From Toxonevra muliebris (lineage: Eukaryota; Arthropoda; Insecta; Diptera; Pallopteridae): DNA of 64,000 bases. The translations under genes were made by a program, and so were the position numbers. Of this stretch, positions 11,963 through 60,729 are shown piece after piece; the stretch's first letter is position 1; each line of letters starts with the position of its first letter. Under the pieces are notes generated by a model. The model was given only the letters and a program-made list of their open reading frames with translations, had not been told where the DNA came from and did no database searches. Location: NCBI GenBank assembly GCA_963691655.1, contig OY829326.1, positions 85,305,235 through 85,369,234 on the forward strand, written 5' to 3'.

Positions 11963-13873
11963 TTTTATTTATTTTATTTATTTATTTTATTTATTTATTT
12001 CAATTTCATCAATTAGAGTACATGCTCTTAAAGACTACTAGATATTCTAAATGCTAACTTAAATAATAATTAACTTGGGTATTGCAGTGTCATAATTAAA
12101 CGATTTTTAAATTTACATCGATTTGAATGATTATAAAAATCTAAGTAGCCGCAGACTTCATTTGCTTCCCTTAAATAACGTGTTATAGGCTCATTGCGGC
12201 AGTAGTTTACTCTATGATAAGGTTCATAAAAAAGACTTCTAGATCTTAAGTTACGAGTAGGACAATAAAAGCCAATTAATTGAAGCAGAGGTGGGCAATC
12301 AATATGATTGTTAATTATGTCTCTTACAAACATAACAGAGAAGTATTTACGCCTAACTTCAAGAGATTGTATACCAAGCAAGAGACATCTGATTCTATAA
12401 GATGGCATATCAGTATTCCAGCGCAATTTATGAATGGCACATCTCGTAAATTTTCTCTGAACCCTTTCAATTCTTAACGACTGAACAGAATTAAAAGGAT
12501 CCCAGATAATGCTGCAATACTCCAATATAGACCTCACAAATGAAAAATATAAAGCTTTGAGAGTATAAGGATCTGAAAAATCTTTGGAGTTCCTTATAAT
12601 AAATCCAAGCATAGATCTAGCTTTAACTATTAAGTAGTCAATATGCTTGGAAAAACACATTTTGGAATCAAAAAGAACCCCAAGATCACACTTTTCGTTA
12701 ATCCTAATTAGTGCTGTATCGTTTAAAATATACTGAAATCTAACTGGAATCAAAATTCTGTGAAGAGATAAATTTTGGCATTTGGAAATATTAAGGGATA
12801 ACTTATGTTTATCACACCAAATCAACAACCTAGACACATCATCCTGAAGCCTCGCACAGTCACTGATGGATTTGACACTACAGTAAAGTTTCAAATCGTC
12901 AGCATACATAAGGCAATGGGAGTGGCGAAAAATTCTAAGGATATCATTTACAAATAATAGAAAAAGAAGTGGGCCTAGGTGGCTGCCTTGAGGGACACCA
13001 GAAGTGACCTCAACTACTTCCGATAAAGTGTTATTTATGCGAACGAACTGAGTACGTCTAGACAGATATGATTCCAACCATTTCAACATACTTGAGTGAA
13101 ATCCCATTGATTCTAGTTTTCTGATTAGCATTAAATGATTTTACTGAAATCCGTATAAATCACGTCACACTGATAACCATTTTTAATATTATTTAGCACG
13201 AAGTTAGAAAAAATTGTTAGGTTCGTTGAAGTAGATCTGCCCTTAACGAATCCATGTTGATAGAGAGAAATAACTTCTTTCAGAAGGAACATAAGTTTGT
13301 TGTAAACTAATTTCTCAAACATTTTAGGAATAGCTGAAATCTTACATATTGGATGATAATTAGAAACTTCAGCCTTGGAGCCAGATTTGTGAATGGGAAT
13401 AGTATACGATTTTTTCCAAACCTCTAAGAATTCACCACGAGCAAGAGACCGATTAAAAATAATTAGCAATGGAGGAGCTAGTGCAATCGCACAATTTTTT
13501 AATAAGATTGGAGGAAGGCCATCAAAACCAGATTGTTTGTCAGAGTTTAAGCAAGTGAGCTCTAGAGCCACTTCTTCTAAGGTTAATTGCAAATTACCAA
13601 TATTAACCAAACTGGAGTTCGAATACTGGTTTAAATCCCTAATGGTAAAAGAAGGGACATAAACAGAGCGAAAAAAGTTTGCAAAGAGATTGCAAATTCT
13701 GGAGATCTCAGAAGACGTTTCTCCATCAAAGTGCATTATGTCTGGAATACCAGAGGATTTTCTTTTATTATTGATGAAATACCAAAAGCTTTTACTGTGA
13801 GATTTCAACTCAGTTTCGACACTGAGAATATAGTTTTTGTATAAAAATTTATTAAGATAATCAAATTCATCTT
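11963..13873 (-). mobile_element. 5'-truncated LINE with TAAA-type tail
   Basis: The element reads on the minus strand and ends at 11963-12000 in a tail of TAAA/TAAAA units. Its 5' side stops at about 13873, where MITE sequence resumes, and no endonuclease is present, so it is 5' truncated. A target duplication was not defined. Confidence 0.75.
12070..13808 (-). pseudogene. LINE reverse transcriptase, single frameshift
   Basis: This is the best preserved RT in the window. The first frame (13808-13131) has LNSDKQSGFDGLPPILLKN, IPIHKSGSKAEVSNYHPI (RT block 1-2), YQHGFVKGRSTSTNL and VIYTDFSKI (first catalytic Asp, block A). It is then interrupted by a small deletion and frameshift at about 13131. 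The second frame (13131-12070) has SGVPQGSHLGPLLFLLFVND, the YADDLKLYC box (two Asp), LSLNISKCQ, LGVLFD and the thumb and C-terminal region to 12070. YADDLKLY, no RNase H and the C-terminal style suggest a CR1/Jockey-supergroup LINE. Confidence 0.88.
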
Positions 13874-22397: not shown

Positions 22398-23970
22398 TAC
22401 CACCTATTATAATTCCGCCACCTTCGTTACACTGTGCGACGTATACCTCTTTCAATTCCTTTGAAATCGATAGCACAATCTGTGCTAGACGGATTTTTCA
22501 ACTGGATGCATATTGGTGGCCACCACTGCTTTAAACACAACTAAAGGAGCCGACCTCCGACTGCCGACTTCTTCAGAGAGAATAAACACAATAAGAGCGC
22601 GAACCCTTAGCGCCAAGAATATGTAAAAGAAAAACGATATATATTTTTGTTTTTACAATTCATTTTATTTCTACTTATGTTGTCAATTGCCAAAAAGTAA
22701 AAGGAAAATTTCAAGATTATGCATTTTGAAATAATTGTTGCATAAATAAAACGTTGACTCTAAGAGTTTATGCTCGATTGCAAAAGTTCTTTTTGGTGAA
22801 AATTGAAATGCGTTAAATGCCGTTGTTCTATAATGTTAGGGCTGAGAATCGGCGGTCATTAATATTTGATTATTCACAAATGCATATTGCTAATTGATTA
22901 CAATACAATGGAATAAAAATGGTAGGGGACACTGGGGTATTGTGGATCGCATTTTTATTTTGGCTAAAAACTCACAAAAAAAAACTTTTTCTGAAAATTT
23001 CAAAGCTTGAATTTGAAGTACGAGAAATAACCTCACAAAGGGTCGCAACAGTTCGACCAAATTGTATTAAAATTACAAGTTATATCAGTTGGCACCAAAA
23101 TGGTGTTTTTGATAATTCTCGGGGAATTATGGAACAGTTTGTAAATCGATTAAAAATGGAAAAATGTTGTAGAAAAACATTATTTATAATTCAAAATGAC
23201 AGAAGATTCGTTATTAAAGAGAAATAAAGTAAAATGAAGTGAAAAATAGCAATGAAAATCAGTCCGAAACGGAATATTCGCAAGTCCAGAAACTTGCAGT
23301 CTGCGGCGCATGCCAAGTGAACAGCTCTATCGCATATGTTGCAATGGGTGTTATTTTGGTGGTTCATCTTTTTTGGCATATTTTACTTACAAATTATGCA
23401 AAAATCAATGTTTTCTTGTCCCGGTGTCCCGACCTTATTTGTTTTTTGGAAAATATAGCGTCGATCTCGTGTGTATTCTTGTTGAGAACGAAGCGATATC
23501 ATTGATAAATTTTTCGAATGCTTGAAAATATAAATATGAATACAAATTCGCTTTTTTGAAAATGTAAGCGAAATTCTCTACAGAGCGAATCCTCAACATT
23601 GTATACTGGTTTACAAATTTCAAGTCTTGAAAAGTACCAAGAACAAAACATGTTTGGGTAGATAAATTGAGACCTCCTGAACACAAAAAAAAAAGAATCT
23701 GATCGAAATCAGCAGTATTTTGTTGGAAAGTTAATTGATTACACTGTGCAACAATTTTAGGGTCATGGAATCTAACGGAGAAGCATTATAGGTCGATAGT
23801 ACTAGTCTACAGTATCAAAACCCTAAGAGGGATTTAAAAATTTAGCTCGCTTTTAAATGTTATAGCCTTTCAAAGTTGTGATATTTTAGTGTATTTTTCA
23901 ATATTATTTTCTGTTTTCAATAAAAACAACAATTTGAAAATCCAAACTCTATTAAATTCTATACATTTTT
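22398..23970. other. Intronic stretch with unassigned frames
   Basis: A 102-codon plus-strand frame (22919-23227) and overlapping frames at 23239-23525 are present. Their residues, including a cysteine-rich stretch with RICCNGCYFGG, match nothing I recognise with confidence. They may be decayed transposon sequence. No element ends were seen. Confidence 0.45.
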
Positions 23971-24039
23971 GAAGTTGTATATAAACAGGCTTAATGAACA
24001 AATGTAGTCATCACAACAACAATGTATATAGAGACGGGC

Positions 24040-24088
24040 AAATCAGACGGCCGTTTCGGAATCCGCCACAATTCCTCATCAGTGATCT
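24040..24088 (-). ncRNA. Type I hammerhead ribozyme motif, copy 1
   Basis: The motif is identical in core to the plus-strand copy at 24253-24301 and lies in the other arm of the inverted repeat. The core CTGATGA is at 24082-24076 on the minus strand. Stem II is GGAAT/ATTCC with an 8-nt loop, followed by GAAA, a minimal stem III AC/GT with GGCC loop, and the cleavage triplet GTC. Stem I pairs AGATCA with TGATTT. This copy is in the sense orientation of the ABHD18-like gene, inside the intron between exons B and C, so the pre-mRNA would carry it. Confidence 0.8.
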
Positions 24089-24252
24089 TAGTGATAGTTC
24101 TTAATCTTTCAATATCCTATATAAGCTACTAATATTTGAAATCATAACCCAGAATTACGGATTTGATTCCAAATATCTTCACTGAATAGAGATATTGAAA
24201 TTCAAATATTAGTAGCTTATATAGGATATTGAAAGATTAAGAACTATCACTA

Positions 24253-24301
24253 AGATCACTGATGAGGAATTGTGGCGGATTCCGAAACGGCCGTCTGATT
24301 T
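24253..24301 (+). ncRNA. Type I hammerhead ribozyme motif, copy 2
   Basis: All conserved core parts are present in order. Stem I 5' strand AGATCA is 24253-24258 and CTGATGA is 24259-24265. Stem II is GGAAT (24266-24270), loop TGTGGCGG, ATTCC (24279-24283). GAAA is 24284-24287. Stem III is AC/GT closed by GGCC (24287-24294), then C17 at 24295. Stem I 3' strand TGATTT is 24296-24301. Predicted cleavage is after 24295. The two-base-pair stem III is like that of retroelement hammerheads, which may cut best as dimers. It is antisense to the host gene. Confidence 0.82.
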
Positions 24302-24844
24302 GCCTGTCTCTATATACATTGTTGTTGTGATGACTACATTTGTTCATTAAGCCTGTTTATATATAACTTCAAATAAGGAAATTGACATGAACTTAAGTCA
24401 TGACTTTGAAAATTAACCTCTAGATTTAATTTTCATAGTCTCCTAAAAAACTATACATTTTTGTTTATGGTATTGCTGCTTATTTTTTACAAAAGTCAAG
24501 TAATGGATAGTTTTATCTTCTTAGTTTGGAAAACTATTATAATGTTAAAATTGTTAACGACATTATTTGTTATTTCGCTCAGAAAGCAGAAAAAATATCA
24601 AAACATTGAATACTGTACTGTACAACGGCCAAAAAAGCTCAAGAGTTTTGAAAGTTGATCTTATATAACTCAAGTACACTGAACATAATGGTTTTAGTTT
24701 TTCTCTATCACGTCTAATTTATTTTTTATAACTTTCAAAAGGAAATATTAATAATTGGAGTCATTACAGTCATTGTGCCAAAACACAATTTTCCTGACAT
24801 CTTTCGCGGTGTGCATGATAAAGAAGGAACTGCTTATCTGTAAT

Positions 24845-25612
24845 TAGTGTTGATTCGATACCCACATAGTATCGATACTTTTACTCATTACTTGTATCGA
24901 ATAAAAGTATCGATGATACCGAAAATATCGGAAAAAAGTATCGAATATGTACTTGTATCGAATACTCGTTTAAAAAAACAAATTACTCTTTTTTTAAATG
25001 GTTCTCAAGGAAAACATTCAGGCCAGAACGGCCCATTATGATACAACATGGTTGAGCCTACAGTTTACACTACTCAACACGAGTTTTTCGCCAATAAATC
25101 ATGGTTTTGAGATATTTCCACTGGAAACACGTGAATCATATAGAAATGACGTTAATTTTAATTAGCAAATCGATAGAAAATTTATAATAGAAGGAAAACT
25201 AATCAACAGATTAAAGCTTGTTAAAAATATTTTATTTTAATGAAAAGGTTTCAATTAACATTATGTTCTACATGCATGGCCGAAAATATCTTCTAGAACT
25301 TCAATACTGTACTGCAATATTGTCATACATTGAAATATTGCAATATGGACTGAAATATTTTGAATAACTCTGCAGTAGTGTTTTGAAATATATTATTGAT
25401 TGCTGTAAAATATTGTAAAATGATCCACAATTTTAAATATTGTATAGCAATATTTCAGTTTTTTAAATAAATATTTTCCAAAAGTATCGAGTATCCGATA
25501 CTGACCCTTTTTTCCGATAACAAGTAAAATACTTATGTTATAGCATCGAGTAAAAAAAGTACTTGAATCGAATGAAAAGTATCGAGTTTTTACTTGTATC
25601 GAATCATCACTA
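24845..25612. mobile_element. hAT-type MITE with perfect 8-bp duplication
   Basis: It is flanked by TCTGTAAT at 24837-24844 and 25613-25620, an exact 8-bp target duplication. The ends are TAGTGTTGATTCGATAC and, inverted, TAGTGATGATTCGATAC. Subterminal sequence is rich in GTATCGA repeats on both sides. The 8-bp duplication fits the hAT superfamily. It is non-coding. A SINE tail fragment lies inside (25018-25073). Confidence 0.88.
25018..25073 (-). repeat. SINE 3' tail fragment
   Basis: On the minus strand it reads AAACTGTAGGCTCAACCATG, then TGTATCATAATGGGCCGTTC. This parallels the body-tail junction of the SINE at 22081-22397. The tail repeat (CCTAA) is absent. It is nested in the hAT MITE. 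Confidence 0.65.
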
Positions 25613-26115: not shown

Positions 26116-27725
26116 GTTAGGTTAGGTTAGGATGGACTGGCAGCCTTCTGCTTGAAAGCACACTTAAGCACATTAAGGCTCATTGTGATACCACAGTACG
26201 GCGAGACTCCCCCATTTACGGATTGGAGAACCATGAGGATTCCATAATGAATCTGGCTATGTCCTTAATATTTACGGATGATAGCTCGGACAGACTAGTG
26301 AAGAAAGGTGAGCCCAGGAGTTTTAGTCTCCTCCTGGCCAGGGATGGGCATTCGCACATGAAATGGAGGACTGTTTCTTCCTCCTCCTCAGAGCCGCAGC
26401 CCCGACAGAAGTCATTGAATGGCAGTCCTAGTCGTGCAGCATGTCTCCCCATTATGCAGTGCCCCGTGAGCACCGAAGTCGTAATGCTGATGGAGTTTCT
26501 GCTAAGGTTGAGTAGCTGTCTAGTTCGTCTATTGACCATAGTGGTCCATGTTAGCCTGGTAATACCACAGGTATGCTACGCTACCCAGGATATTTTGCTT
26601 CCTCAAGGTAGTTTTGGTTAATGGTTAATTTAATAGACGTAAGAGGGACACCAATTGTGCAGGAAGGTGATATATCTGTAAGCTGCGAGCCCTGTTTTGC
26701 TAACTCGTCGGCATTGCAGTTACCTGAAATATCCATATGTCCAGGCACCCAATATAGGTGGACCTGCGAGTGACTTGACAAAATGTTGAGTGAAGATCGG
26801 CAGTCGAGAACAAGCTTTGATGTAGTGAAAACACCGGCAGGGGACTTGATTGCTGCTTGGCTGTCCGTGTAGATGCAGATATTCTTATCGAATGAATCGT
26901 TGCGAATAAGCCACTTGGACGCTTGATAGATAGCCATTACTTCCGCCTGAAAGACGCTGCAATGGTCAGGAAGTCGGAAAGAGAGTCTGAGATCTAACTT
27001 ACAAGAGAAGATGCCACAGCCGACTCTTTCCTCCGATTTGGATCCATCTGTATAGATGTCAATTGAATTGTCAGTGACCACCTCGTCATTAACCCATTCC
27101 TCTCTACTGGGGATATGGATGAAAAACGTGTGGTTTAAATTAGGGGTAGAGCAAATGTAGTCTACGTTAGTTTGTACGGACGTATCGTGGATTAAAATCT
27201 TGGCATGGCCCAGGTTTGACCGGGTCCAGCGAGTTAGGGCACTGAGTCTGGCAGCAGAGCACTTAGCTTGTTGCTTGACCAGAAGTGAGGTTGGCAACCA
27301 ATGAAGGATTGCGAAGAGAGCTTTCGTGGAGGTAGTACGGAGGGCCCCAGTAATCAATATGGCTGCCGTTCTTCTAACCTTATCTAGTGGTTTAAGGTTG
27401 ACCGCCTTTGCTCGACCACTGCTGAATAGAGCCAGGAAGTGACTCGAGGTTGAAGACCCCATCTTGTTCCTAATGCCCTCTTACAGCAGTAGAGAGCGCA
27501 AGAAGCTTTCCGTACTCTCTCTGCTATATTAGCTTTCCATTGAAGTTTAGGATCAAGAACAAGTCCTAAATATTTGACGAGCTTGCTAAGGCAAAGCGAG
27601 GTACCATTAATTTTAGGTAGGGCAAAAGTTGGTATTTTATACTTTCTAGTAAAAAGCATAACCTCTGTTTTGGCAGGATTAACATTAAGACCGAATTCAC
27701 GGCACCAGTGAGACAGAATGCTAAG
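26116..27725 (-). pseudogene. LINE RT end, RNase H and zinc knuckle (LOA/R1/I-type)
   Basis: Read from 27725 down, post-YADD RT sequence has FALPKINGTSLCLSKLVKYL and GLVLDPKLQWKANI. After a frameshift near 27430 comes KPLDKVRRTAAILITGAL, then RNase H blocks SIDIYTDGSKSEERVGCGIF (Asp), VFQAEVMAIYQ (Glu), ICIYTDSQAAIK (Asp) and YWVPGHMDISGNCNADELAK (His/Asp). A second frameshift near 26575 leads to the C-terminal knuckle CRGCG..HFMCECP and a stop at 26216. The 3' UTR contains GTGGTATCACAATG and ends in CCTAACCTAAC at about 26116. It is 5' truncated at about 27725. Confidence 0.88.
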
Positions 27726-30193: not shown

Positions 30194-30556
30194 TTAAATA
30201 TATACAGGTATTCCTTTTGGTGGGCAATATGCTGCTCCTAAAACTAGGCCAACACCTCCATGATTTACCGATACAAATGTAGCTTGTATAAATGGTTCTC
30301 GAATGTCTTCTCTTTGTGAATGTTTAATATTTTCTTTAATGAATATAGCTGTTCCTCCACGAGCCCACTCACTGGGGTGAGTAGTCCAGTATGCTGTATA
30401 TCCTTTAATTTTTATGTAATTTGTGTTTGAAAAATGTGTTTCTGAGATGAGTGCAATATCTATATTGTTCATTGCAAGGTACACTTCAAGTTCATTTGCT
30501 CTTTGGTTGAGCCCATTTGCATTCCAGGATACTATACGGAAGAAAGAGCAGGTCAT
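30194..30556 (-). pseudogene. Jockey-type APE endonuclease, N-terminal part
   Basis: The frame of 120 residues begins MTCSFFRIVSWNANGLNQR. It contains the catalytic Asn of WNAN, IDIALISETHF (the Glu of SETHF binds metal), YTAYWTTHP and GGTAIFIKENI. It ends in GLVLGAAYCPPKG. The remainder of the domain, including the conserved SDH block, is in broken frames further down. It would nick target DNA for target-primed reverse transcription. Confidence 0.85.
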
Positions 30557-37549: not shown

Positions 37550-38010
37550 AATTTGGGTCACTTCTCTCGTAACGGCTTATTAGAAGCATTTTACAATGAT
37601 TCCCGAAATTTTTTTTTATTTTTTTTTTTTGTTTCCCTGGAATTGAACTAAAAGGGAATCAATTACTTTCGAGGAATCATTCCAACTAAATTGGAATTTA
37701 TTTCTAAGAAAGTAATTGATTACACTTAAATAATAAATTCATTTCTTTTCAATTACATTTTTAATTCCTTTAAGGAATTGATATATTTTTAATTACAAAA
37801 TGCAATTCCCTGTAATGGAATCGAAAATTTTTCCAATTCCTTTACCTAGGAATTTAAAAATTTTAATTACTGATTACAATTCCTTGTAATAGTATTGAAA
37901 CTTTTATCAATTCCATTACCAAGGAATTGAAAACATTAAAGTGCCAATTACAATTCCTTGAAATTGGAATCGGGAATGTAATGTAATTGAATTTACCCAG
38001 CTCTGATTTT
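37550..38010. repeat. AT-rich repeat with AATTCCTT motifs
   Basis: Short degenerate motifs of the type AATTCC(T)TTGTAATTG recur many times on both strands. The right boundary TTTACCCAGCTCTG resembles a hAT-type terminus (CAGAGCTGGGTAAA inverted). A matching left end was not found, so the boundaries are uncertain. Confidence 0.4.
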
Positions 38011-40860: not shown

Positions 40861-42207
40861 TGATATAGAAAGCACATTCAATTGATGGCTCTATTGCGGC
40901 TTTTGTCTACAGTCTATTAATGAATAGGATCATTAACGCAAAGTTTGGTACCTCTTTCATTAGAAGGTTTGCGGTCAGAGGCACTCCGCAAGGTAGTGTC
41001 CTCTCTCCACTCCTCTGAAACCTTGCTGTAAATGATATCCTAACGAAACTTGAATAAACAGGGTGCAAAGTATTTGCCTATGCGGACGATGTTGTCATCG
41101 CCGCTTCGGGGAAATTTCTTGGTACACTTGTAGACTTATTGCAATGAGCTGTGAATGTCTTATCGTCCTGGTGCAATCACAGAGGACTATCGGCCAATGC
41201 ATCCAACACAGAATTAGTTCTATTCACTCGAAAGCACTCTATACCAAATTTTGATCCATCAACTCTAAATGGTAGTTCACTTATCGACTCGGAACAAGGC
41301 TATAGGCAGGAAATGGGGGTTAAAACCCAAGGTAATCATGTGGTTGCATACCAGTGTTTAGTCTTATTATATTCTACGGCGTAATAGTGTGGTGGGCAGT
41401 CATCTCAAAGAGCACCCAAAACAAAGAATTAGACAAAGTGCAGCTACTAGCTTCAATGTTAATTACAGGAGCACTGAATACGACACCCTCTAAGGGGCTC
41501 TACACCATCTAGGATCTCCTTCCAATAGATCTAGTCGGAAAGATCTCAGCGTTAATATCTGCAGTGAGACTGAATGCGATTCGTAGGTGGTCCCTCACAA
41601 ATTATGGTCATGGTACGATACTCAGTGAAACTAAATTTCTTTCACCCTCTGTTGATCTCACTCTCTCCCCATTATCCTCAGCTTCAGCTTCAGCACATAT
41701 ATTCTATCTCGACAAGAATGGAGTGTGAGTAATGTGATACGCCCTGATATCATCCACCTTTATACTGAAGGTTCAAATTCGGATGGTAGGGTTGGGGGTG
41801 GAATTCACTCTGAGCGCCTGAACATTTCGGTGCAGTTTCGTTTTCCTGATCACTGCAGCGTCTTTCAGGCAGAGCTGCTTGCGATCACTGAAGCCGCAAA
41901 TCTGATAAGATGTAATGCGATACCCTGTGGTGATATCTGCATTTTCACCGATAGTCAAGCGGCAATAAAATCCTTCCAATGTCCAGCTAATAACTCTAAA
42001 GTTGCCCTACAATGCAGATCGTCTCTTTACGAAACAGCCATTGCATGTAACCTGCACCTTATATGGGTACCTGGGCATAGCGACATTGAGAGAAACTGTA
42101 AGGCTGATGACCTCGCCAGACTTGGTACGACACTCAGCAATTCACTTATTATTGGTAACGTAGGTATACCACTTGCCACGTGTAAACTTCTAATTAAAGA
42201 TCCCACA
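40861..42207 (+). pseudogene. LINE RT plus RNase H, split by a hAT element
   Basis: Broken frames show the RT catalytic box KVFAYADDVVIAASG near 41080, then GLSANASNTELVLFTRKHSI. The RNase H frame from 41740 has IHLYTEGSNSDGRVGGGIHS (the Asp of TDGS is Glu here), VFQAELLAITEA (Glu), ICIFTDSQAAIKS (Asp) and IWVPGHSDIERNCKADDLA. The frame is cut at 42207 by the hAT insertion. The LINE resumes at 45373 with SRIAGREWNQLARQFWPM to about 45465. It is the same LINE group as 26116-27725. Confidence 0.85.
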
Positions 42208-45200
42208 CAGTGGCGGTACGTTTATATAAGCCAAAAAGCCGGGCTTACCTAGCAATCCTCAACTGAAATATTGTGCAATATTCACATATTTTCAAATTTG
42301 CACGTTTTGTTCCAAATGCAAGAATAATTTTCTTTTAAAGTTTTTAATTTGTGTTGCCCTGTTTTCAAATGGTTTATGCATGTGGAACATGTAGCATAAG
42401 TAAAATACCTAAGTACAAGCATTCATCCTATAGCAGTTTCTCTCATTGGCTTTTACAAGGCTTTCAAAATTTACAAATCACAACATTCTATTTCGCTTAT
42501 ACTCACAGGGAATTGTATGAATGTGCAGTTTTAAAAAGAGTACTAATGTACATTTCTTCCAATTATGTAGGATTTTATATTGAAATTAAAAGCTGGCTTT
42601 CGTTTTTTTTTTTACGTGTTTGAAATAAGTAAAAAAAAAAAAATTGCAGTTATTCTTATTTGGAACATTTTCGTTCCACTTCGCTTGGTTTTCTTTTTTG
42701 TGCGCTGTTGAGCTTACAATTGCTCAATTAATCAGGACAATATAAAAGAAGATCGCAGTTAATAAAGTTTTAAGAAACATTTCGTAAGTTTTTAAAGCTT
42801 TATTAATAGGGAAATTAATTTTGCATGTATTTTTCGATTTGCAGTGACGAATTCGGAGAGGCAGCAAGACGTTCTGTGTGCCGAAGATTTTCATTTACCG
42901 AAGAAATTGTGTAAACCGCGAAATGTAAACAACAAAAGTTTTAAGAAACATTTTATTACGATATTGCAAAATTTTGTAAGTTTAAAAGGGTTTAGTTATT
43001 AGGACAATTAATTTTGGATCTATTTCTGAATTTACAGTGCCGCATTCTTTAAAAATGTAACATATTTCTATTCAAGCAACGTGGTATTTCACAACTTCAG
43101 TCATTAAATGAGGGCCATGTTCATCATACCTGCACCTGCAAAAATTTAAATAAATAATAATTGAGCATTTTATCGATATTCCCATCCACGATCGTCTCAT
43201 CTTTGAGAATTTTATTGCCCGGTGTAGTTTTAACTAGATTACAGCATAAGTTTGCAGAAGTATACTTATAAGCTTAAACATTTTATTTTATTTTTTATAT
43301 AATTATAAGTTTTTGGCAAACTATGAGTTCGGAAGCCAATGAAATTGTTGTATGTGAAGGATTAAAGTGTATTAGGGAACTAATTTGTAATCAAAAACTA
43401 CAAACATTAAATTTTTCAAAGAAAAAAGAAATAACGGGCTCATTAAAACCTACTCCTAATTTATGCATAGCTCAAACTGGGAAATCGCACAAAAGGTTTT
43501 TCAATCGTTCGGTGTATAAGAATCGTTGGGTAGCTGGTTGTTCACATTTGAATAAACTACTTTGTTGGTATTGTATCTTTTTTCGAATGACAAAGGCTTG
43601 TGGAATTTTTTGGGTTACGATGATTTAAATAATTTATCAAATGCTATCAAAAAACATCAGATATCGCAAAATTATTTGAATGCAGTTATATCTTTCCACA
43701 AATTCGATAAAAAGCGGAAACCACTTTATCACGACAATTTTCGGAAGAAATTAATTGGCACAATTTAAAACTAGATCACAACCGAAGTGTATTTCAACGA
43801 CTAGTAGATATTGTTTGTCATTTGGCTCAACAGGAACTTCCATTTAGAGGTCATAATGAATCTGGATCCTCTTTAAATAGGGGTCATTTCTTAGAATGTG
43901 TTTCTTTATTGTCAAAGTATGATCACGCTTTAGAAAAACATATGCAAAACAGTAATACTGACCCAAACTATTTATCAAACAAAATACAAAATGGTTTCAT
44001 TTATTTCTATTATTCTGGATGAAACTCCAGATATTAGTAATAGAGACGTATCCGAAGATCGTACTGCAGATGCACTTACTAAAATTATTTTTGAATTCAT
44101 AAATAAATATGAGTGTAGTAAAAAACTAGTTGCTCAAAGCTGTGATGGTGCTAGCGTTATGTCCGGTGCTAGAAATGGAGTGCAACAAAAAGTACGGGAG
44201 TTATACCCTCACGCTATATATGTTTGGTGTAGTGCACATATTTTAAACTTAGTTTTATCTAAATCATGAAACAGAATTGGAGAAGTGAGTTTATTTTTTT
44301 CTGCCCTACAATCATTAGTTAATTTTTTTTTAATAATAGTATGAAACGGTCTGCACATTACAAAAAGTTCTGTAATAAAAAACTACCGCATATTTCTGCA
44401 ACTCGTTGGGCGTATTCATCCCTTATTGTCAATACAGTTTTTGAACAACAAAAAAAAGCCTTAACGATTTGTTTGAAGATATGATGGAAAATGACCAGAT
44501 TTGGGATGGCGATACCGATTTATTTGCTCGAAATATTCATAGTTTGCTCAAATCATTTGAATTTAATTTCTTCCTTGAAGTATTTCAAAATATATTTGTA
44601 AGAACAGATAACTTGTATAACATCATACAAAAATCGCAAGTAGAAGTCGGTTATAGTAGCAATAAAATTAAAGAATTTGATAATTGGTTGTGTTCAGATT
44701 TTCAATCCCTATTTGATCAATTTTACGATAAATCATTAGAACAAAATTCAGCACCATGATTGAAAAGAAATATCTCATGCCCTTCAGAGTTGTTGAAATT
44801 GGCTCACTTGGTTGTTACAATACCTGCAACCAGTTGCTCAGCAGAACGAGCTTTCTCTGCCTTAAAACGAATACACACTTATTTGAGAAATACGCAAGGG
44901 CAATGTCGTCTTTCCGAACTGTCCATAATCGCCAATGAAAAGGAACTCTTAATTAATGTAAAACGTTCAGTTCATTTTTATGACGACGTTATTAAATCTT
45001 TTCTGAAAAAAATAGGAGATTTCAATTTGAATATAAATGAACCTTTATTTCTTTTTTTTAGTGTAAAATAAATTTACTTTGATTACAGTTCCCAATTTTT
45101 TCTAATCCACTTTTAATCTGTATTTTTGTAGATATACTTTGTTTATTTTTTGTAATTGCTGAATTTGTGAATTTTCCATATGTTTGTACGCAAGTATTTC

Positions 45201-50593: not shown

Positions 50594-51541
50594 GAGCAAC
50601 ACGGACCACGGATTCGGACTCAGTTACCCTAAGTGCATTTGTCCCGTCTCTGCTCGTTTTCAAAAGTTTCAATTTGCAGAACAGTGTAATTACACTAGTT
50701 TATAAATTAAAAAAAAGTTTTTGTGCTAAAGACTATTTTGTTTTTCATTTATATACTTTGGTCAGTTTCATTGGCCGCACATTGAAATTAACTTAATGTT
50801 TAGTTTTAATAACCGGCCACCCTCTTAAAATTTTAGGAGTTCAAAATTATTATTATAAAAATGGGAAAAAACTTGGAAAAAAAAAATTGTTAAACATTGA
50901 AATCGTAAAAGTATCAGTTTGCTGAGAACCACCGATATACCGTTTAAAGCATTTCCTTAGTAAGAGAGATGTCACATCCACTTTTTCTAAACCATTAACT
51001 TTTTCCTTGTAGCATCCACTGTAAAACGAAGTTTTTGTGCTAACTCTCAGTATTGTTCCAGAAATAATTTAAGAATTATACTATATTAAAAATCAGTGTT
51101 GCATGGGATGACACACCCACTAACCCAGCCAATTAACTAATAATACTTTTATACCAAATCTAATTACCGTACCAAAAGTGTTTCCTGAGATATCCCATAA
51201 TGGGAGTTAATAAGTCAGCCAGGATACTTAGATGTATATATATATATATAGATGATATAGATTTGGTTTGAAAAAATAAAAGCCATTAAAATTTTGCCTA
51301 AAATGCATTTGCGTATTTCTCAAAAACCTTACGTGAAAAAATTAGTACGCCATCAATATCAACACCCGCGAGTAATATAAAGCTGATGTATAAGGTCCTT
51401 GACGCGAAACATTGCAATTTATCGACTGTTAATTTTGAAAAATAAATAAGAAAACTTTTAATCATACATTACAAGTAAAAAAAAAATTCCAGCTCCTCTC
51501 CGAAATTATTTTCTGACTATGTAATTGATATGCTGACTTAC
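50594..51541. other. Intronic stretch next to exon A
   Basis: Nothing recognised apart from a (TA) microsatellite at about 51233-51250. Confidence 0.5.
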
Positions 51542-51809
51542 ATGGTCTCCGGTACCAGCTAAATGGATACAGATTGGTTTATATTTCTCATGTTTCCACT
51601 TATTGGGCAATAAAACTTGAAAATGAGCTTCTTGAACTGATTTCGGTACTACGTCAGGTAAATGTAGCTCCAAAGGCGTCATAAACTTCCCCTCAATAAT
51701 TTTGCAATCAGGATACTTCTCTTCATTGATAATTTCCACAGGGTAATCATATGGAATTAACTTGTAACACGTTTCTCTTCGAGAAATAATTTTACGAAAT
51801 TCAAATAAC
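51542..51809 (-). CDS. ABHD18-like hydrolase, exon A
   Basis: This 268-bp exon has acceptor TCTTATTTCAG ending at 51810 and donor GTAAGT starting at 51541. It supplies the last base of a split codon, then 89 codons: LFEFRKIISRRETCYKLIP, then DYPVEI, DCKIIEGKFMTPLELHLPDV, AHFQVLLPNKWKHEKYKPIC and IHLAGTGDH. This matches the N-terminal third of ABHD18 proteins (RLFEFRKII..RE, ICIHLAGTGDH). The split codon is probably Arg. The preceding start exon (about 30 residues) was searched for by eye to 64000 and not found. A longer reading upstream of the acceptor is intron, being hydrophobic and unlike the family. Confidence 0.93.
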
Positions 51810-52221
51810 CTGAAATAAGAAAACAATAAAACATAATATAAAGCGGTAATGAATTGTTTAAAACAGTGACCGAAAATAATACATATTTTTAAATATTTTA
51901 AAGAAAAAATTAACATGTTCCAAATATCGGAAAACAAAGTCGAGTATACCAAAATGATAAGCATTCTCACTAAGAAGAATAGTTTTTATCTGTTGATTTT
52001 TATTTGTTGGGCAGAAATTATAATAATTTTCCGATTTTTATCTGTTTGCTCAGAAATAAGAATTATTTTCTGATTTTTTTTTATGTTCAGGAATATATTT
52101 ATATATTTATATTTTTAATCGAAAGTAAAAAATCAAATCATTGCGCAGCTTTGCACACACGATGTGTTCAGTTAGAGTCTGAAATTCGTGTGATTATTTG
52201 TGTTGTTATTTTTTGCGTTGC
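51810..52221. other. Intronic stretch upstream of exon A
   Basis: No coding exon or element end recognised. TTTTTATCTGTT..GCAGAAAT-type segments repeat near 51985-52070. Confidence 0.45.
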
Positions 52222-59620: not shown

Positions 59621-59844
59621 ACCACTACTTTGAGAGACCATAGCGCCGCAGATACAGCAAATATGAGACAATTTTTTATTTCAACGCTTACAAGGGACAT
59701 TTTTAAAAAAGCAATTTGAAGGATTTTTATGTGTATGTGTGTGTGTGGTATGAGTAAACCCTTAAAAAACGTATTTTTTAATATTTTTAATGTTTCATAA
59801 GAAAATCTGACCAAAAATCAAAGAAGAATTGCAAAAAGTACATA

Positions 59845-60526
59845 CATTCTGTCAAATAAGTACCCGGAAGTTCTCATTTTAAATTTTCCCTCTGAGAATA
59901 TTTAAAAAAAAATTTTTTCCCAGGTTGGCACAACTGTCAACCACTATTCTGTGAATTTTTATTGCTATGTGTCATTTAGTTTGGTTACGGCATCATTAAG
60001 AACAAGTCAACCTTTTGTGTGCGTTGCGATTTTTACTATGGATAAAAATATCGAACAAAGAGTTTGTGTGAAATTTTGTGTTTCAAACGAAATTTCTTGT
60101 GCCAAAACGACATGTTTTGGGTATGCGGAAAGTCTCAGCGCGATTGGTGCCAAAAGATCTGAATTTTCTTCAAAAAGTGAATCGCAGTAAGGTGGCTGAA
60201 GACATGCTTGAACGCGTAAATTCCGATCCAACGTTCATCGAACGCATCATAACTGGTGACGAGACATGGGTTTTCGAGTACGACATGCAAACAAGTCAAC
60301 AATCATCGGAATGGCGCGCCAAAAATGAGCCGAAACCGAAATCGCAACGCACACAAAAGGTTGACTTGTTCTTAATGACGCCGTAACCAAACTAAATGAC
60401 ACATAGCAATAAAAATTCACAGAATAGTGGTTGACAGTTGTGCCAACCTGGGAAAAAAAATTTTTTGAAATATTCTCAGAGGGAAAATTTAAAATGAGAA
60501 TTTCCGGGTACTTATTTGACAGAATG
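59845..60526 (+). mobile_element. mariner derivative with 188-bp inverted arms
   Basis: It is flanked by TA. Arms 59845-60032 and 60339-60526 are nearly identical inverses from CATTCTGTCAAATAAGTACC to GTGTGCGTTGCGATT. The centre holds a mariner transposase piece: SKVAEDMLERVNSDPTFIER and IITGDETWVFEYDMQTSQQS (first catalytic Asp in TGDE), then SSEWRAKNEP. The right arm is thus an inverted copy of the element's own 5' end, including the start of the coding region, in place of the normal 3' end. Confidence 0.88.
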
Positions 60527-60652
60527 TAGAACGGTAGTGGTAGTTCCTTTCAAGTGAACTAACTGTCAGTAAAAATAACTGTCTTTGTAATTCGCATTTA
60601 TTTTACAGTATTTTCACTTATATAGATTGTTGAAATTAGGGAACTATCACAA

Positions 60653-60701
60653 AGGTCACTGATGAAGAACCGTACCTGGTTCCGAAACGATCGTCTGATC
60701 T
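60653..60701 (+). ncRNA. Type I hammerhead ribozyme motif, copy 3
   Basis: Stem I 5' strand is GGTCA (60654-60658) and CTGATGA is 60659-60665. One A faces C at the base of stem II. Stem II is GAACC/GGTTC (60667-60671 and 60678-60682) with a 6-nt loop. GAAA is 60684-60687. Stem III is AC/GT with loop GATC (60687-60694), then C17 at 60695. Stem I 3' strand is TGATC (60696-60700). Compared with the 24-kb copies, stem II differs at paired positions with pairing kept. The A-C mismatch at the first stem II pair (normally G-C) may weaken cleavage. Confidence 0.72.
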
Positions 60702-60729
60702 GTTAGTTCTATGAACTTTTTGATATTCT

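Follow-up and report, generated by a model that had tools for sequence, protein, structure and literature searches.

How one short piece of insect DNA comes to carry a hammerhead ribozyme on each of its strands is the question raised by a palindrome in Toxonevra muliebris. The palindrome lies in a 64,000-nt stretch that was analyzed as a whole and is referred to here as the window. We consider it likely that a single insertion of a type I hammerhead retrozyme, non-coding and non-autonomous, produced the feature as two cDNAs made from both target ends, with a Penelope-like element (PLE) as the most likely source of the machinery.

An inverted repeat with a type I hammerhead in each arm

The ribozymes and repeat arms of the window are as follows.

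23968..24140, minus strand: left arm of the inverted repeat (repeat comparison)
24201..24373, plus strand: right arm of the inverted repeat (repeat comparison)
24040..24088, minus strand: type I hammerhead, predicted cut after 24046 (core pattern and structural descriptor)
24253..24301, plus strand: type I hammerhead, predicted cut after 24295 (core pattern, structural descriptor and RF00163 match)
60527..60702, plus strand: old diverged retrozyme remnant with a third hammerhead (71% over unit 311 to ~7)

The original prediction of a near-perfect palindrome was borne out: two 173-nt arms (23968-24140 and 24201-24373), with 60 nt between them, were identical at 171/173 positions, the two mismatches being T/C at 24305 and 24364. 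The complete hammerhead claimed for each arm was also found, as a 37-nt core running from CTGATGA to GAAACGGCCGTC was exact at 24046-24082 (minus) and 24259-24295 (plus), with a mean of 0.00 occurrences in shuffled sequence. A strict structural descriptor, which misses the third, diverged copy at 60653-60701, detected the two arm hammerheads in the window and zero in 150 dinucleotide shuffles. The core elements CUGANGA, GAAA and UH stand in order among three stems, which are 6 bp with one G.U (stem I), 6 bp counting the closing U.G (stem II), and 2 bp with the loop GGCC (stem III); the proposed type I class and retroelement origin were both supported.

The Rfam model RF00163 (Hammerhead_1) matched a 67-base stretch at 23.8 bits and E 2.7e-4, below its gathering score of 34. 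Over 550 bases, Rfam returned no hammerhead family at E≤10, its 16 matches being to hairpin, snoRNA, and other families, and over the window no family reached its gathering score. Matches of the palindrome to miRNA precursors, obtained with Rfam at a relaxed E-value, were set aside because they reflect the hairpin.

The third hammerhead, at 60653-60701 on the plus strand, matched RF00163 at 17.2 bits (E 0.05). When this old copy and the arm were compared by eye, as two sequences only, stem I was retained, as was most of stem II, with one two-sided stem II change from U-A to C-G, three one-sided changes that keep pairing, and the first stem II pair broken (A.C). The stem III/loop III octamer of the hammerhead at 24253..24301, ACGGCCGT, is self-complementary. 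Judged from sequence, the octamers ACGGCCGU in the arms and ACGAUCGU in the old copy would resemble the self-complementary stem III/loop III of newt and Aedes hammerheads, which are thought to act as dimers in the parts of the sources drawn on here (PMC3088659; PMC6155905).

The suggestion that a long hairpin competes with the ribozyme fold agrees with predicted energies: -311 kcal/mol for the palindrome RNA hairpin. The isolated 49-nt hammerhead is predicted at -5.0 kcal/mol in the ribozyme fold versus -11.2 kcal/mol in its best fold. On these predictions, RNA transcribed across the locus would probably adopt the hairpin instead of the ribozyme fold, with the hammerhead inside the palindrome probably masked.

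Genome copies and alignment to a 486-nt unit

We searched the source genome (491 Mb, 96 contigs) with the left arm plus spacer (23968-24200), which matched many places at 99-100%; many of these were short tandem arrays with a period of mostly 484-494 bp. Copy counts are lower bounds, since 40 of 1,026 candidates were scored in this single search. As reference we used one 486-nt unit, numbered from the predicted ribozyme cut, with a GC content of 0.337, and segments extended up to 4.6 units. Low GC and target duplications of >4 bp, both traits of a metazoan non-LTR retrozyme, were present. The 40 fetched stretches and the window make 41 records, two of the stretches overlapping (L143 and L166 are one locus). 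An element-specific pattern gave 0 matches in the viral contig and genome contig collections searched, and a general hammerhead pattern found at least 120 stretches in the viral contig collection. The sequence TTCAAATA, present at both arm ends, had been considered as the joint of a 167-nt circle or as an 8-bp duplication; it was excluded as such by the genome copies, which show the 486-nt unit.

Aligned to this unit, the window insertion has the following parts.

23959..23971, no strand: left target-site duplication CTATACATTTTTG (direct repeat; last 4 nt match the element too)
23968..24200, minus strand: left cDNA, unit 332..486,1..78, outer end at site A (99.6% to unit)
24141..24200, minus strand: "spacer," unit 332-391, left cDNA only (unit alignment)
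24201..24454, plus strand: right cDNA, unit 392..486,1..159, outer end at site B (99.2% to unit)
24374..24454, plus strand: unit 79-159, the A-B interval, right cDNA only (unit alignment)
24402..24440, plus strand: hairpin between sites A and B (inverted repeat, predicted fold)
24451..24463, no strand: right target-site duplication (direct repeat; first 4 nt match the element too)

Two cDNAs meet between 24200 and 24201 and are enclosed by the 13-bp direct repeat CTATACATTTTTG. As read from the alignment, they are antisense cDNAs of the same unit, one per target flank, with starts at unit 78 and 159. Neither arm was copied from the other, because unit 332-391 is found on the left only and 79-159 on the right only. 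The 60-nt spacer corresponds to left-cDNA sequence lying beyond the point where the right cDNA stopped, and the palindrome stops at 24373 because the left cDNA started at unit 78 and the right at 159. The arms of the predicted inverted repeat were real, but its extent fell short, since the inserted DNA continues to 24450/24454. By this alignment the palindrome is accounted for over its full length by the two cDNAs and the duplication.

A DNA-level or snap-back inverted duplication of one cDNA or genomic copy would suit the near-identity of the arms (171/173 positions), and self-priming is proposed for PLE palindromes in a portion of PMC3846280. At the window locus, however, this explanation is contradicted by the unequal arms (332-391 left only, 79-159 right only), and we regard it as very improbable.

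Outer ends of insertions fall at two preferred sites

We defined site A as 78-89 nt and site B as 155-169 nt after the ribozyme cut and divided the 41 records into 13 simple inverted insertions, 24 simple single-direction insertions, and 4 that were left out. The inverted set consists of the window and 12 fetched loci (L130, L135, L136, L140, L142, L146, L156, L157, L160, L161, L163, and L164), with L160 kept although weak (second arm 73 nt at 94.5%). Left out were L132, L143, and L166, which are complex or cut, and L152, a B-end insertion beside an old 83% piece.

In 12/13 simple inverted insertions, one outer end lay at A (78-88) and the other at B (155-165), and none of the 13 paired A with A or B with B. 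The exception was L156, with outer ends at 56, which is not A, and at B. Without L156, 12/12 discordant A/B pairs have a probability of about 2e-4 under independence. Snap-back duplication does not predict this rule. Outer ends of the 24 single-direction insertions were divided equally (12 A, 12 B), and a search for cryptic inverted pieces at these 24 insertions gave none that was convincing. For multi-unit segments (≥719 nt), in which the query could not have selected the end, 17/18 outer ends fell at A or B; the shorter arm also ended at one of these sites in all 13 inverted insertions, and in the window that arm was the query itself. A and B appear as two preferred internal reverse transcription start sites with an optional tail, as in PLEs.

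Inner ends (n=51) were scattered over the unit. Five of the 51 lay no more than 10 nt downstream of the predicted cut (P 0.004 versus uniform, with the limit set post hoc), and these look as if some templates were ribozyme-cut. At L154 and L135 the inner cDNA ends lay exactly at the predicted cut (unit 1), perhaps by run-off on cut RNA.

This variation bears on whether the palindrome itself is the unit, either as a foldback/MITE-like DNA transposon or as a selected, viroid-like ribozyme of two polarities. The palindrome would speak for such a unit, as would the intact hammerhead core seen on each strand in 8/41 records. A MITE or foldback element has fixed termini and a fixed palindrome across copies, whereas here the inner junctions vary: the 51 inner ends are spread over the unit, and any two of the 13 inverted insertions differ in at least one inner end. 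In addition, 24/41 records run in a single direction. We find this reading barely credible. The notion of the two-strand arrangement as a functional unit was likewise unsupported, given 12 more inverted loci and the 24/41 single-direction records, and the paired-strand hammerheads look like a side effect of two-ended insertion.

Target duplications enclose the inverted insertions

An exact direct repeat of 11-16 bp was present at 13/13 inverted insertions, compared with 1/156 mismatched left/right flank pairings from this set that reached 11 bp. Single-direction insertions had a duplication of at least 11 bp in 8/24 cases versus 17/552 mismatched pairings; that no more than 8/24 have one counts against our best explanation. 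In the inverted insertions, the two segments met within 5 nt in 9/13 cases and more widely in L135, L142, L156, and L163.

We considered whether two independent retrozyme insertions in opposite directions could lie side by side. The family is abundant, and copies on the same strand abut or nest (L143, L152). Yet the duplication encloses the composite in 13/13 cases, which contradicts independence unless by coincidence, and the segments meeting within 5 nt in 9/13 and the A/B pairing also stand against it. Little credence can be given to this account.

Composition at the target bore on priming. In a tally made with no background control, the 20 clear duplications had an A-rich start and a T-rich end; therefore, both nicks would expose T-rich 3′ ends. 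Duplication and element overlapped by a mean of 3.9 nt, with at least 1 nt at 29/33 ends (an uncontrolled count). The first base past the duplication was A in 5/20 and T in 8/20, and T occupied the next three positions in 12-13/20.

Sequence variants shared among units

The hammerhead had 1 variant per 4,662 bases, against 12 per 17,131 in the remaining query region and 146 per 19,214 outside it. We make no claim of hammerhead conservation, and excess conservation was dropped as a candidate, because the loci were selected by that same query region.

At L130, L132, L142, and L163, some variants were shared by all units that cover the position, whatever their orientation: a 2-nt deletion in 4/4 units of L130 and 3/3 of L142, three variants in 5/5 units of L132, and one insertion in 2/2 units of L163. 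The 2-nt deletion and the L163 insertion also occur at other loci and therefore mark subfamilies. Other variants were confined to some units (e.g., in L134, L137, L143, L146, and L164), as expected of later mutations. From their distribution, the unit-wide variants would fit a single RNA circle that was copied repeatedly and served as template at both ends, and in some arrays they appear compatible with expression of circular RNA; an array that was already homogeneous and gave multimeric transcripts would also account for them. L132 is itself complex, with four alternating-strand retrozyme segments in 4 kb that carry the same three variants wherever these are covered.

Proposed mechanism and candidate machinery

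These observations suggest that retrozymes are mobilized by PLEs, with a circular RNA primed at two sites from both target ends. In this scheme, the ribozyme would cut multimeric transcripts into monomers and a ligase would close these into circles, as in the published retrozyme life cycle. An endonuclease/reverse transcriptase would nick the two strands of the target at positions about 12 bp from each other, and the T-rich 3′ ends left by the nicks would then prime cDNA at the two preferred sites that flank the hairpin on the retrozyme RNA, with a circular (or multimeric) RNA as template. Joined head to head, the two cDNAs would form a palindrome in which both strands carry a hammerhead. The machinery would most likely come from a PLE, with a LINE as the main alternative.

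PAc, a PLE of Anolis, offers a comparison. Both target strands are cleaved and extended by PAc, which has two internal reverse transcription start sites whose interval forms the genomic "tail" (PMC11167929). One start lies 111-118 nt into the ORF and the hammerhead cuts 26 nt in (PMC11167929), so by subtraction the start is about 85-92 nt after the cut, versus 78-89 nt for retrozyme site A. For Penelope of the rotifer Adineta vaga, part of PMC3846280 describes duplications of 8-10 bp, a pLTR in inverted orientation, and a tail at one of the ends. The retrozyme shares with PLEs the two start sites, the upstream hammerhead, and inverted copies in which one end bears a tail. It differs in its A-B interval of about 75 nt rather than 30-40, in having no ORF of its own that we could see, and in its fuller type I hammerhead. 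The start sites of PAc are not homologous to the target, and PAc inserts without ribozyme activity (PMC11167929), whereas our account of the retrozyme infers ribozyme use and overlaps between target and element.

The genome holds 148 reverse transcriptase (RT) matches, among them open frames of 827, 859, and 866 aa around PLE-type RT, which are candidates for an autonomous PLE. Identical PLE-type RT scores recur in this assembly (G000) at C4:32220825, C3:82088232, and C60:41352 and at C3:56000546, C5:20204534, and C14:3936; such frames may reflect recent activity. A broken copy at L168 has GIY-YIG behind the PLE-type RT, L170 has a long open PLE-type frame with an inverted PLE endonuclease end upstream, and endonuclease-like pieces are present at L170 and L171. 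Pfam GIY-YIG matches occurred at two places only, one a PLE and the other not a PLE by its neighbors, and two such places versus 148 RT matches counts against the PLE account. Minimal hammerhead-like motifs were seen in two of three PLE 5′ regions with a relaxed descriptor and no shuffle control. A comparison of the unit to 5′ regions from three of the PLE families in this genome, which has more, gave nothing better than chance (best E 0.06); part of one of these regions was masked. A PLE is the most likely candidate for the mover.

The same twin-primed retrozyme insertion could instead have been driven by a LINE through L1-type twin priming, which we think unlikely but a serious competitor. 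The 11-16-bp duplications, T-rich primers, and short RNA overlaps fit target-primed reverse transcription. LINE-like fragments are present in the window, and, in part of PMC4918200, the authors liken Nematostella retrozyme repeats with 15-bp duplications to LINEs. As in L1 twin priming, two target ends prime one RNA and leave an inverted product with a target duplication; unlike it, the retrozyme arms repeat the same region, with starts at two preferred sites. L1 twin priming yields a rearranged single copy. L1 endonuclease sites are TTTT/A, to which the bases past the duplication (A 5/20, T 8/20) are a poor fit; this argument is weak because the overlaps blur the nick position. The paired internal start sites, moreover, resemble a PLE tail.

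Our favored PLE-driven reading extends to a broader proposal, to which we would give slightly less than an even chance: animal retrozymes could be the "SINEs" of PLEs, in which a PLE dimer would cut both strands and prime at two set sites on one ribozyme-made circle, with rolling-circle cDNA made for each strand. If true, each such palindrome would be the trace of one RNA circle having been used at both target ends.

Relation to known retrozymes and neighboring features

According to the parts of PMC7229834 used here, metazoan non-LTR retrozymes have published units of 150-450 bp, and our family resembles them in its type I hammerhead, 2-bp stem III, tandem low-GC units, and duplications of >4 bp. 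Its 486-nt unit is slightly over that range (PMC7229834, in part). The portions of PMC7229834 and PMC7761336 drawn upon do not settle which autonomous element mobilizes animal retrozymes but treat PLEs as a strong candidate; that portion of PMC7229834 describes no inverted insertions of two cDNAs with a pair of preferred start sites. No description of two-ended retrozyme insertions was found in the literature searched, which was chiefly open-access main texts. The feature is a real insertion form of a known kind of element, and the form was not found in that literature. Its two-site, two-ended anatomy is a countable genomic signature, checkable in any retrozyme-bearing genome; it explains both-strand ribozyme palindromes without invoking selection, and the anatomy of the start sites hints at the enzyme that moves such elements.

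Several other features were noted in the window. Short TATCGA-type repeats, direct and inverted, are clustered at 24853-24964 just downstream of the insertion, and a 74-bp tandem repeat (2.7 copies) occupies 37772-37972. LINE-like fragments at 12070-13131, 26581-27462, 30194-30556, and 41725-42252 contain RVT_1, RNase H, and endonuclease in separate frames. At 43711-45068 there are hAT-like transposase fragments, with DUF4371 (just under the cut-off) and a hAT dimerization domain, and an exon-like piece at 51506-51970 resembles ABHD18. A short mariner-like element at 59843-60528 adjoins the old retrozyme remnant; it has 27-bp exact inverted repeats (59843-59869 and 60502-60528) and a Mos1/SETMAR transposase fragment.
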